NCBI GenBank assembly: GCA_021604505.1
Contig: BQJC01000001.1
Coordinates: 62,001-126,000, forward strand
Direction of reading: 5' to 3'
Origin: Nitrospinaceae bacterium
GTDB lineage: Bacteria; Nitrospinota; Nitrospinia; Nitrospinales; VA-1
Length of the DNA stretch: 64,000 bases
Shown here: positions 34,087-39,329 of the stretch, piece after piece
Numbering within the stretch: position 1 is the first letter of the stretch
Layout of the letters: the number at the start of each line of letters is the position of its first letter
Position numbers and translations under genes: made by a program
The notes under the pieces: generated by a model
Databases searched by the model: none
Told to the model about the DNA's origin: nothing
The model's input: only the letters and a program-made list of their open reading frames with translations

Positions 34087-36516
34087 ATGAGTGAAACTCA
34101 GGAAAAGATCGAATCCAAGATCAAGGTTTCTCGTTCCCAGTGGGGAGAAAAGCTTCGGCAATTTCAGGAATGGCAAATCGACCCAAAGGCCGTCAGCAAG
34201 CCTGATTTTACCAATTTGGACTTGCGGTTCGCCGATCTGTCCTCGCAAAATCTGTATGAAGTTGATTTTTCCGGGTCGGACTTGTCCCGCTGTAATTTAA
34301 TGAGCGCTGATCTCACCGGCGCAAAATTCACAGGAAGCAAGCTGACAGGCGCTTTTTTCAACGGCGCGGTATTGAAAGGAGCAGATTTTTCAGGGGCGGA
34401 TTTGGAGGAAACCCTTTGGGATGGGGCCAGGGCAAAGGGAGTGAATTTTTCCAAAGCAATTATAAACCGTGTCAATTTTCAAAACGCCGACCTTTCGGAG
34501 TCTAAATTTTCGCAAACCGTTTTAAGAGACACCAACCTTAAAGAAGCCAAATTGGTCAAGTCGGATTTTTCCGCGGCAACATTAATTCAAACCGATATCG
34601 AAAAGGCGGATTTGACCGAAGCAGATTTTTCCGGAGCGAACCTTACCAAGACGATTTTCCGCATGGCCCGATTGGTGAAAGCGGACTTTAAGGATAGCAA
34701 TCTGTCAGAGGCGGATTGCCAGGGAGCCGATTTCCTGGAAGCCCGTTTGGTGCAGGCAAATCTTTTCAAAGCCAATCTCCCGCATGCCATCCTGACAGGC
34801 GCCAACCTGCAAAAATCCAACCTCGACGATGCTAATTTGGAGGGCGCCCTTCTAAGCGGGGCAAACCTTCGCGAGGCGTCCTTAAAGAACAGCCGGCTGG
34901 AAGACGCCGATCTGTCCCGCTGCGATCTGACCCGTGCGGATCTTTCCCGTACCCGAATTGAGGAGGGGGTGCCGGGAAGAGTGAATTTGACCCAGGCGGA
35001 TTTGACCGATGCCTGCCTCGTGGATGTCGATTTGAGGAACGCGGACCTTTCCGATGCAAAACTGAATAATGCGGTTTTAACCCGTGCGCTGTTGTCCGGA
35101 GCAAAAAGCGCGGGGATGAATCTGGCGGCAGCGGATGTGACCAACGCCGAACTGCCGGAGGACTTAAAACGGTTCCCCGTTCTCGAAGCCATTGCCGAAG
35201 CATCAAAAATGGCCCGTAAGCTTTATGCCTGGTTGCTCGCCGGGATGGTTTTATCGGGGTTGACCCTGGTTGCCACAAGGGATGATGAGCTGCTGGCCAA
35301 TGCCGCGGTGTCGCCCCTGCCTGTGATCCAGACCTTGATCCCCGTTGTGGGGCTTTATCTCGCAGTCCCTGCGATATTGTTGGTATTGTACCTGTACTTT
35401 CATTTACAACTTCAACACCAGTGGCGGTTGATTTCCAGGCTTCCAGGAGTGTTTCCGGATGGTACGCCTCTGGATGAAAAAATCTACCCGTGGATTCTCA
35501 ACTCCTGGGTTCGTAAATTTTCATCGCCAAAACCACCGGGCACAGGCTTTTTTACCGAGAGTCAGGACAGGTTCCTAATGGAAAGAATGGTCTCTGCTCT
35601 GAAAAATTTTTTGGTGGTGACGATGGCCTGGTATTCCATCCCTCTCCTGATGATCTTTTTTTGGGGTGGTTACCTGATTCGACACGACTGGATGGGATCG
35701 CGGCTTCACATAGTGTTTTTGGTTTTATCGATCATTGCATCTCTTTCTTTTCACCTTTTGGCCAGGCACACCTTGCGGAATCAAACGTTGTCTTTACTGA
35801 AAACGGGATTTTTTTCGCTCGTCTTCGTGGTTCCTGTTTTGTTGGTAACTTCCAGCCTGACGTTTAAAGCCATTGAGGGAAATCTGGAAAACCCCGTTCT
35901 GGAAATCCGTGTGCTTCCCTGGGAAATAAAATCGGCGCAGTCGAATGTCCTTTTTGAAATTCCGCTTGAAGATAAAATAAGACGGGCCCTGGATCCCTGG
36001 ATGAAGGCCGACATTTCCGGAAAAGCAGTTTCCAGCTGGCCTGATAACTACGATCCGCAAGATTCCAAACAAATCCGCTGGGTCCGGGGCGCCCGTCTCA
36101 ATGGCGCCAATCTAAATTATGCCAATGCCTCGGAAGCGTTTCTAACCAAAGCCCAACTCAAGGGAGCGTCTTTGGTGGGGATCAATCTTTACCAGGCGGA
36201 GCTTCGAAATGCGATGTTGCAAAAAGCAGATCTCCGAGGCGCCGATTTGAGGTTTGCCGACCTGTCAAATGCCGATCTTTCAAATGCCGATCTGTCAAAC
36301 GCCGACCTTCGCGAGGCGAACCTTGTGATGGCCAACCTTTCGGGGGCAAAACTCACAGGGACGGACTTGACCAATGCCGATATCTCCAACAGCATTTTTT
36401 ACGATGTGGAAGGCTTGACCGCCGGGCAGGTCCAGCTTTCCATCCATTCGAGGGAGGGCCATTTTGAAAGCGACCTGCAGAAAGATCTCAAAATTTTTGA
36501 CCCCGGTTCAAACTGA
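34087..36516 (+). CDS. Pentapeptide-repeat protein with central membrane domain
   Basis: The 809-residue protein starts with a short charged helix, then runs of A(D/N)LxX pentapeptide repeats (about 39-345) that would form a right-handed quadrilateral beta-helix. A membrane domain of about five helices follows (about 378-592), then a mixed segment. A second repeat block at about 667-775 holds the almost perfect DLSNADLSNADLSNADL. The repeats are expected on one side of the membrane at each end. Similar proteins are known in cyanobacteria and other lineages, but function is unknown. It stands alone after the HpnN-like gene. Confidence 0.9.
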   Translation: MSETQEKIESKIKVSRSQWGEKLRQFQEWQIDPKAVSKPDFTNLDLRFADLSSQNLYEVDFSGSDLSRCNLMSADLTGAKFTGSKLTGAFFNGAVLKGADFSGADLEETLWDGARAKGVNFSKAIINRVNFQNADLSESKFSQTVLRDTNLKEAKLVKSDFSAATLIQTDIEKADLTEADFSGANLTKTIFRMARLVKADFKDSNLSEADCQGADFLEARLVQANLFKANLPHAILTGANLQKSNLDDANLEGALLSGANLREASLKNSRLEDADLSRCDLTRADLSRTRIEEGVPGRVNLTQADLTDACLVDVDLRNADLSDAKLNNAVLTRALLSGAKSAGMNLAAADVTNAELPEDLKRFPVLEAIAEASKMARKLYAWLLAGMVLSGLTLVATRDDELLANAAVSPLPVIQTLIPVVGLYLAVPAILLVLYLYFHLQLQHQWRLISRLPGVFPDGTPLDEKIYPWILNSWVRKFSSPKPPGTGFFTESQDRFLMERMVSALKNFLVVTMAWYSIPLLMIFFWGGYLIRHDWMGSRLHIVFLVLSIIASLSFHLLARHTLRNQTLSLLKTGFFSLVFVVPVLLVTSSLTFKAIEGNLENPVLEIRVLPWEIKSAQSNVLFEIPLEDKIRRALDPWMKADISGKAVSSWPDNYDPQDSKQIRWVRGARLNGANLNYANASEAFLTKAQLKGASLVGINLYQAELRNAMLQKADLRGADLRFADLSNADLSNADLSNADLREANLVMANLSGAKLTGTDLTNADISNSIFYDVEGLTAGQVQLSIHSREGHFESDLQKDLKIFDPGSN

Positions 36517-36547: not shown

Positions 36548-36871
36548 TTAGATTTCGATGTATAACCCGTCTTCCTTCTCCTGGACCTTGTAGGTGGGTA
36601 GGACCGAACTGCGGTCGAATTTGCAATATCCCTTTTGGATGTTCCATAGGCATTCCTGGTTTGAGCAGATGGCAAACTTGCCGCGCAAAACCCCATGGCC
36701 CAGGCTTCCGGCACACTTGGTGCACTTATCCGTGATTACAAAATACTTCCCTTCCGCTTTAAACAGGGCAAGATCGTATTTAAATAAAGTGTAAGGGTGC
36801 TCCAGATGAATGGTTTTTCCACTTTCATCTTCGGGAGCCTCTGAATAGTCGGAAATTTTTACTAAAGACAT
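36548..36871 (-). CDS. Rieske-fold-like protein with all-cysteine cluster ligands
   Basis: The 107-residue protein resembles NirD/ferredoxin-type Rieske proteins: a beta-strand N-terminus, then KCTKCAGSLGHGVLRGKFAI and CSNQECLWNIQKGYCKFD. In a normal Rieske the ligands are CXH...CX2H. Here the corresponding positions read Cys50-X2-Cys53 and Cys69-X4-Cys74, with a further Cys83, and neither ligand His remains. It could bind a [2Fe-2S] cluster through four cysteines, or zinc. It is coupled to the small gene upstream, with two bases between stop and start. Cellular role unknown. Confidence 0.7.
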   Translation of the reverse strand: MSLVKISDYSEAPEDESGKTIHLEHPYTLFKYDLALFKAEGKYFVITDKCTKCAGSLGHGVLRGKFAICSNQECLWNIQKGYCKFDRSSVLPTYKVQEKEDGLYIEI

Positions 36872-36873
36872 TT

Positions 36874-37152
36874 TTATGGTTCATCTTTGGGAAGATAGGG
36901 ACCGAATCGCTCCCGGTAGTATTTCTCCAAATCCCAGCGAAACCGGCCTTTCAGATGAGGAAGCATTTCGGCGGCCTCATGGTCGAACTTGACGTATTCA
37001 ACAGACTTTTTTTCAAGATCCTCCGGCCTTGTTATCTTGGGGTCCAGGTAGGAATCTCCCATGGCCGACCCGGCGACAATCAAACCTTGTCCCATTTTTA
37101 TCCATTTTCCTAAAAGCAATCTTTCTTCCTCAGATCCTTTTTCTACTGCCAT
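36874..37152 (-). CDS. Small soluble protein upstream of the Rieske-like gene, unknown
   Basis: The 92-residue product is charged, without signal or membrane segment and without cysteine. It contains KWIKMGQGLIVAGSAMGDSY near the centre-left and a basic/aromatic tail RWDLEKYYRERFGPYLPKDE. No family is recognised. The near-contiguous arrangement with the Rieske-like gene suggests they are expressed together and may form a complex. That is inference from context. Confidence 0.65.
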   Translation of the reverse strand: MAVEKGSEEERLLLGKWIKMGQGLIVAGSAMGDSYLDPKITRPEDLEKKSVEYVKFDHEAAEMLPHLKGRFRWDLEKYYRERFGPYLPKDEP

Positions 37153-37393: not shown

Positions 37394-37924
37394 ATGTCAT
37401 CCGAACCTTCATCCACCAAAAATGCCGAAGAATGGTTTCAAGAAGGATTGGCCGCCGGCCGCTTAAGCGATCACGCCGCCGCCTTGGAAGCATATAAACA
37501 AGCGGTCAAAATCGATCCGGACCATTTCATGGCACAGTTTAATTTGGGCATCCGATATGGCAAACTGCGCATGAATCTGGATGCCGCCAAATGCTTCCGT
37601 GAAGCCTTGCGTCTGAAGCCCGAATCCCCGATGGTCCATTACAGTCTGGCCGTAGTCAGCAACCTGATTGGCGAAACCGATGAAGCCTTTCAGCATTATA
37701 AGGAAGCCATCCGAATCAACCCCGAATTTGGCAAGGCGCACAGCAACCTGGCGATGCTGTACTATTCGATCAAGAGGGGCCGTGATACGATCCATCACTT
37801 GCTAAAGGCGCGGGAAATGTTTCAGAAAACCGGCGACGAGTTCATGGCTAAAAATGCCATCGACCTTCTTAGAGAATGTTGCAAGGAATTCAAACTGACG
37901 GAAGAAGAGTGCAAGAACCTCTGA
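37394..37924 (+). CDS. TPR-repeat protein
   Basis: The 176-residue protein holds about four tetratricopeptide repeats between residues 12 and 150, for example HAAALEAYKQAVKIDPDHF, DAAKCFREALRLKPESP and EAFQHYKEAIRINPEFGKAH. There is no signal peptide. The start at 37394 follows AAGGAA. A dehydrogenase gene follows 31 bases later on the same strand. TPRs act in protein binding; the partner is unknown. Confidence 0.85.
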   Translation: MSSEPSSTKNAEEWFQEGLAAGRLSDHAAALEAYKQAVKIDPDHFMAQFNLGIRYGKLRMNLDAAKCFREALRLKPESPMVHYSLAVVSNLIGETDEAFQHYKEAIRINPEFGKAHSNLAMLYYSIKRGRDTIHHLLKAREMFQKTGDEFMAKNAIDLLRECCKEFKLTEEECKNL

Positions 37925-37955
37925 TTTTTCCTCCCGCAAAAAGGGGTCACGGTTG

Positions 37956-39329
37956 ATGGACTACGACGTGGTGGTGATTGGGGGTGGCTCTGCGGGTTAT
38001 GCGGCGGCCCGGACCGCTCAGGAATCCGGAGCAAACGTAGCAATTGTGGACCATGGGCCGCTGGGCGGATTGTGTATTCTAAGAGGATGCATGCCCACCA
38101 AAACCATCCTCCGATCCTCCGATGTGATGTCCCTCTTCGGGCGTGCCAAAGAATTTGGGATCAAGCCCGTCCAGGCCATGGCTGACCTTGGTGCCATTAA
38201 CGACCGCAAAAGCCGGATCATAGCTGATTTTGCCCGGTACCGCGCCGAACAATTGCAGGATCCAAAGTTTACCCTGATTGAAGAAGCCGCCTCATTCATT
38301 TCTCCCCACGAAGTGCAGGCAGGAACAAGCACCCTTCGCGCAAAAAACTTCATCATTGCGACCGGTTCCAAGATCGCCCAATTTCCCATTCCCGGTCTGG
38401 AAGAAGCGGGGTATGTCACCAGCGACGATGTGCTGGAAATGCGTGAAGCGCCGAAATCCATGATCGTGCTTGGCGCCGGACCCGTAGCCGTCGAACTCGC
38501 CCAGTTTTTTTCCCGCATCGGCGTCAAAGTCGACTTGATCCAGCGCAGTCATCACATATTGTCCAGCGGCGACGAAGATCTAGCCCGTCCCGTGGAAGGC
38601 CGGCTCCGCGAAGAAGGGATGCAAATTTATACTGGAACCAGGCTTCTGGATGTTTCCAGAAATGGAGAAGAGCGTATCGTTAAATTTGTGCACCAAGGCA
38701 AGGAGAAAAGCGTTCGGGCCGAGCAAATTTTACAGGCCCTGGGCCGCCTCCCCAACATGGAGGGGCTTAATTTGCAAGCCGCCGGGGTGGAAATCGGAAA
38801 AAAAGGCATTGCAGTGAACGCCGAGATGCGTACCAATCAACCGCATATTTTTGCCGTTGGCGATGTCAACGGACTGCATGAGATCGTTCACATCGCCATC
38901 GAACAGGGCGAAATCGCGGCGCATAACGCCGTTCAACCCGACGAACCGCGGCGCATGGACGACAGGCTGAAAGCCAATGTCGTGTTCACGGACCCCGCTG
39001 TGGCCGGCGTGGGCCTCACCGAAAAAGAATGCAAGGCGCAGGAAACCCCTTATCTTGTAGCTTCGTATCCATTCGACGATCATGGAAAATCCATCTGCAT
39101 GGGCGAAACCCACGGCCATGTGAAACTATTATGTGATCCCTCAACGGGTGAGCTCATTGGCGCCCATATCGTCGGACCCGAAGCTGGAGAATTGATCCAC
39201 CAACTCATCACCCTCATGCACTATCACGGAACCGTTCACGACCTTATGAAAATCCCTCACTATCATCCCACCCTCTCTGAAATCATCACCTACCCCGCCG
39301 AAGAACTCATTGACCAATTGAGTGAATAG
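37956..39329 (+). CDS. lpd: Dihydrolipoamide dehydrogenase-like pyridine nucleotide-disulfide oxidoreductase
   Basis: The flavoprotein oxidises dihydrolipoamide, or a related dithiol, with NAD. The FAD motif VVVIGGGSAGYAAA is at the N-terminus. The redox-active pair lies in GGLCILRGCMPTK (CX4C), and a second GxGxxA nucleotide motif in VLGAGPVAVELAQFF. The C-terminal HYHPTLSEII carries the His of the active-site His-Glu pair. Length is 457. The ATG at 37956 follows AAGGGG; a TTG three bases earlier is also possible. The gcv genes nearby, which need an L-protein, support the lipoamide assignment, but mercuric or glutathione reductase-like roles remain possible. Confidence 0.85.
   Translation: MDYDVVVIGGGSAGYAAARTAQESGANVAIVDHGPLGGLCILRGCMPTKTILRSSDVMSLFGRAKEFGIKPVQAMADLGAINDRKSRIIADFARYRAEQLQDPKFTLIEEAASFISPHEVQAGTSTLRAKNFIIATGSKIAQFPIPGLEEAGYVTSDDVLEMREAPKSMIVLGAGPVAVELAQFFSRIGVKVDLIQRSHHILSSGDEDLARPVEGRLREEGMQIYTGTRLLDVSRNGEERIVKFVHQGKEKSVRAEQILQALGRLPNMEGLNLQAAGVEIGKKGIAVNAEMRTNQPHIFAVGDVNGLHEIVHIAIEQGEIAAHNAVQPDEPRRMDDRLKANVVFTDPAVAGVGLTEKECKAQETPYLVASYPFDDHGKSICMGETHGHVKLLCDPSTGELIGAHIVGPEAGELIHQLITLMHYHGTVHDLMKIPHYHPTLSEIITYPAEELIDQLSE

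Follow-up and report, generated by a model that had tools for sequence, protein, structure and literature searches.

The window, a 64,000-nucleotide stretch of a Nitrospinaceae genome, contains two adjacent genes, B and A, and we lean towards the interpretation that A encodes a natural protein built on the Rieske scaffold with one putative CX2C...CX4(C/H) metal site in place of a Rieske [2Fe-2S] cluster. What would be new is this variant, candidate metal site on a known Rieske fold (predicted for A), set in an order-specific gene pair. The pair and its conserved divergent neighbours are the following:

36548..36871, minus strand: gene A, 107-aa protein of predicted Rieske fold, ATG start (open reading frame, orthologues, predicted fold and Foldseek)
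36874..37152, minus strand: gene B, 92-aa protein of unknown family, ATG start (open reading frame, orthologues)
37394..37924, plus strand: TPR protein, 176 aa, divergent from B-A, part of a conserved neighbourhood
37953..39329, plus strand: dihydrolipoyl-dehydrogenase/mercuric-reductase-like flavoprotein, 458 aa, second gene of the divergent pair

Both minus-strand reading frames proposed by the first-pass annotation were confirmed at these coordinates, as were the five cysteines of A (positions 50, 53, 69, 74 and 83). B is the first gene of the pair, with 2 bp between its stop codon and the start of A. Of 52 loci, 51 have a B-to-A spacing between -8 and +17 bp, and the remaining one has 117 bp. 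Both genes are under strong purifying selection (dN/dS ~0.04-0.11 in pairs with measurable dS). B is the better conserved, its orthologues displaying 55-88% identity to the window protein, compared with 40-82% for A. A GTDB-wide scan of 84,980 species with the B profile yielded 56 loci, all belonging to the Nitrospinota order of the window and nearly always continuing with A. With three exceptions, the corresponding records carry the name Nitrospinota, Nitrospinae, Nitrospinia, Nitrospinaceae or Nitrospina. The exceptions (L085, L124 and L130), which go under Nitrospirae or Nitrospirota, appear to come from genomes of the same order (G013, G051 and G053). A and B occur across the whole order and co-occur almost perfectly in the 60 related genomes. 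Both are absent from all five genomes representing other families of the class, and over the 77 genomes of the phylum that were covered for A, it is confined to the order. Furthermore, the A and B profiles have no relatives on viral contigs, and no plasmid carries A. B is predicted to be helical (model pLDDT 83) and contains no cysteine. No Pfam or NCBIfam family matches it, and sequence and fold searches of the PDB gave nothing significant. A and B are probably co-transcribed and probably act as a complex in which A would be a metal-stabilised module; our guess is that this complex is cytosolic and belongs to the core physiology of the order.

The kinship of A with NirD and Rieske ferredoxins, proposed in the first-pass annotation, turned out to be real but remote. 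As a single sequence, A does not exceed the cut-off of any curated family in Pfam or NCBIfam: it scores 13.4 bits (E 0.076) against Pfam Rieske PF00355, for which the cut-off is 20.3, and 23.9 bits (3.4e-5) against the NCBIfam NirD family TIGR02378, for which it is 74.65, and the match to the NCBIfam HcaC-type ferredoxin (2.3e-7) is likewise below cut-off. The profile of 47 A orthologues, by contrast, matches solved Rieske ferredoxins at 1.4e-6. Moreover, the AlphaFold model of A (pLDDT 94.4) was matched by Foldseek to solved Rieske ferredoxins with TM values of 0.75-0.85, the best by E-value being 1fqt and the closest superposition being with 2qpz (TM 0.85, 1.7 A rmsd); NirD structures 3c0d and 4aiv are among the matches (TM ~0.76). 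The predicted fold of A is thus that of Rieske proteins, as had been anticipated, and descent from Rieske-type ferredoxins is the best explanation of its origin. The four remaining Rieske domains encoded in the same genome all keep the C-x-H...C-x2-H motif, indicating that the change of ligands is specific to A. One canonical Rieske domain arrangement is common to two families of the order, a fusion to an apparent glutamate-synthase-type FMN domain (L169:1492-3105, on G000:C2, and L133:10477-12084).

The residues of A that bear on the site are encoded as follows:

36797-36799, minus strand: His25 codon, invariant in 48/48 orthologues
36722..36724, minus strand: Cys50 codon, first Rieske Cys, invariant in 48/48
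36713..36715, minus strand: Cys53 codon, invariant in 48/48, equivalent of the engineered K45C in Sulfolobus ARF
36665..36667, minus strand: Cys69 codon, second Rieske Cys, invariant in 48/48
36650..36652, minus strand: Cys74 codon, Cys in 34 orthologues, His in 13 and Thr in 1, equivalent of bovine Rieske Ser163

The register of A was taken from profile alignments to Rieske ferredoxins and to canonical Rieske proteins of the same order. In the window, the two loops of A read CTKC and CSNQEC, and in ungapped register with C-x-H...C-x2-H the canonical His positions are occupied by Lys52 and Gln72. Both ligand histidines are therefore missing, as first noted, and the cysteines said to lie at or near their places are near but not at them, Cys53 being one residue past the first His position and Cys74 two past the second. 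Among the 48 distinct orthologues, position 52 displays ten residue types, with His in two, and Glu and Asp predominate at position 72, with His in one; none has His at both positions. Cys50, Cys53 and Cys69, in turn, show no variation and make up three of the ten fully invariant columns in an alignment of 47 sequences with a mean column identity of 66%; further invariant residues are H25, T28, Y32, G81 and Y94. Given the low dN/dS values, the invariant Cys columns point to conservation beyond chance. His25 falls in a seven-residue insertion that the order's other Rieske domains lack.

Position 74 is the exception to the four-cysteine invariance that the annotation had proposed to check, which holds for the other three. 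All members of the window's own family have Cys there, the sister families have His, and a single deep genome has Thr, so that the all-cysteine ligation suggested at first does not extend to the whole family; Cys83, listed as an additional candidate, lies outside the conserved set (38/48). When columns 74 and 83 are left out of the tree, the residues found at position 74 can be explained on it with the minimum possible number of changes, and Cys and His fall in separate clades. The change between them happened once or twice and thus counts as one event, not as many independent ones. In the family with Thr74 (L133/L069), no more than three of the proposed ligands are certain, and Asp72 or Asp73 might take over as the fourth. 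The Cys pattern of A is a conserved set of putative ligands with one ligand exchange rather than the free variation that would have spoken against it. Two loci of genus g13 (L063 and L071) have CKHC as the first loop, with the canonical first His beside Cys53, and may represent a transitional state from the Rieske ligands to the new ones.

We propose that the Cys2His2 [2Fe-2S] site of the ancestor was exchanged in A for a single-metal site at the scaffold's tip, with a topology as in rubredoxin or a zinc ribbon. Its ligands would be the two old cysteines, C50 and C69, the new C53 by the first lost His, and the Cys or His at position 74, five residues past the second Cys. The metal is probably Zn2+ in a structural role, since in zinc sites the fourth ligand often alternates between Cys and His; otherwise it is possibly Fe, which would make A a rubredoxin-like electron carrier. 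By the established Cys158/His161 ligand numbering, Ser163 and Tyr165 of the bc1 Rieske protein lie five and seven residues past the second Cys. A has Cys74 (or His) and Trp76 at these places, and the organism's own bc-type Rieske protein has Ser at the first of these positions (CPCHGS). In bc1, a hydrogen bond joins Ser163 to a cluster sulphide, and another joins Tyr165 to the first Cys ligand (PMC12445004), which by analogy would make positions 74 and 76 of A face the pocket. All four predicted ligands would then be at positions known to reach or face the pocket. The cluster-binding loops of Rieske proteins are geometrically similar to those of rubredoxin and zinc ribbons (PMC2946596).

An all-cysteine site had been expected to shift the redox potential strongly or to indicate zinc, and it is possible, if rather unlikely and less probable than a mononuclear site, that A holds a [2Fe-2S] cluster with shifted potential. 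Clusters with three Cys and one His ligands exist elsewhere, as in mitoNEET, and such a reading would suit both the predicted Rieske scaffold and the flavoprotein encoded divergently next door. However, in the Rieske protein of Sulfolobus, Cys introduced precisely in place of both His residues largely impaired the assembly of the cluster, and the ARF variant H44C, with Cys at the first His position, assembled no cluster (PMC2946596). By contrast, the variant H44I/K45C/H64C of Iwasaki, Kounosu and Tao (2005) gave Fe(Cys)4, as that work is described in PMC2946596. The loss of the first His with a Cys placed beside it, found in A, is the feature by which this design, in the same description, produced a mononuclear site. 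The offset pattern of cysteines is easier to reconcile with a mononuclear site of the rubredoxin or zinc type than with a [2Fe-2S] cluster in which Cys replaces His.

The genomic neighbourhood bears on the same question. The TPR protein and the flavoprotein are encoded divergently upstream of B-A in nearly all loci, but A and B persist in G017 (97% complete), from which the flavoprotein gene is missing (contig G017:C8), and in G024, where this gene is split into two frames (G024:C9:36860-38454). The flavoprotein is therefore a conserved yet dispensable neighbour, which weakens the support that its presence lends to a cluster. Both genomes (95-97% complete) keep gcvP. In genus g15 (L123:4200-5199 in G047 and L127 in G045), B is kept, and A and the flavoprotein gene are missing together at the locus; the TPR gene is retained in G047.

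These observations also touch on a less probable reading, in which A would be a metal-free scaffold subunit of Rieske fold and its cysteines disulfides or thiol-redox sites, perhaps working with the lipoamide-dehydrogenase-like flavoprotein. Cluster-less Rieske-fold proteins such as E. coli-type NirD are known, the neighbouring flavoprotein keeps a CX4C redox disulfide in its sequence, and the joint absence of A and flavoprotein in g15, with B still there, as is the TPR gene in G047, is consistent with such a link. Yet the g15 genomes are only 71-79% complete, and A is retained without an intact flavoprotein gene in G017 and G024. Moreover, 13 of the 48 orthologues have His at position 74 beside the three fixed cysteines, an exchange that would not keep a disulfide and is the behaviour of a metal ligand. 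A Rieske-like cluster with its lost histidines supplied by other residues, for instance the invariant His25 in the insertion peculiar to A, is very improbable and would leave the invariant Cys53 unexplained.

A pathway shared by the neighbouring genes was also sought. Glycine cleavage is not favoured: gcvP also occurs where A and B are both absent (in other families of the class), where A and the flavoprotein are absent (g15) and where only the flavoprotein is (G017), and in families f3 and f4 the gcv genes lie elsewhere in the genome. Lipoate genes downstream of A were rejected as well, the genes that recur there being another disulfide reductase and, by sequence reading, a molybdopterin oxidoreductase-like and a formylglycine-generating-enzyme-like gene. 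In several families the latter two overlap and are convergent with A (L126:8858-10230 and L133:6610-7940). In the window itself, the gene convergent with A (34087-36516, plus strand) encodes a protein of 809 aa in which pentapeptide repeats occupy part of the N-terminal half and recur close to the C-terminus, separated by a hydrophobic stretch.

Returning to the mononuclear site, the sequences suggest that it was re-laid in the manner of a published protein design, and not made by putting Cys in place of His. Whether evolution has here carried out the Rieske-to-rubredoxin conversion otherwise achieved by designers and, with the order-specific partner, provided a new complex of the order's core biology is in our judgement evenly balanced. 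Fixed Cys2His2 ligation is the textbook feature of Rieske proteins, and the arguments for relating them to rubredoxin and zinc ribbons have come from loop geometry and protein engineering. If our interpretation is correct, A represents a natural in-between family, with Cys or His as the fourth ligand depending on the clade, and makes this kinship testable in real proteins. In addition, A and B constitute a conserved, apparently unstudied two-gene unit of Nitrospinota, which include major marine nitrite oxidisers.

Among known systems, the Rieske-type ferredoxins of ring-hydroxylating dioxygenases and NirD (PF00355, PF13806, TIGR02378, NF007422) share with A the length, the predicted fold, the two Cys ligand positions, L57, Gly81 and an aromatic residue seven past the second Cys. 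A differs from them in lacking the canonical His pair, in having Cys one past the first His position and Cys or His five past the second Cys, and in the seven-residue insertion with an invariant H-x2-T-x3-Y. E. coli-type NirD, which has the Rieske fold without a cluster, resembles A in departing from the canonical ligand set. However, it is a subunit of NADH nitrite reductase, whereas A has its own conserved Cys set and is not linked to nirB, its recurring neighbours being B, the TPR protein and the flavoprotein. Rubredoxin and zinc-ribbon proteins have in common with A a CX2C knuckle followed by a second two-ligand loop. Unlike the four Cys in two CX2C loops of rubredoxin, the second loop of A is CX4C or CX4H, and in place of a zinc ribbon with two zinc knuckles A has a full Rieske beta fold (predicted); it matches neither family. 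A search of the open literature brought up no description of a natural zinc or mononuclear protein with the Rieske fold, although one may exist. The closest counterpart is the engineered ARF H44I/K45C/H64C, which, as described in PMC2946596, combines the Rieske scaffold with a CX2C first loop, as A does, and binds one metal through four thiols, as A putatively would in its C74 form; A is natural, and its second loop is CX4C/H, compared with CX2C in the engineered protein.
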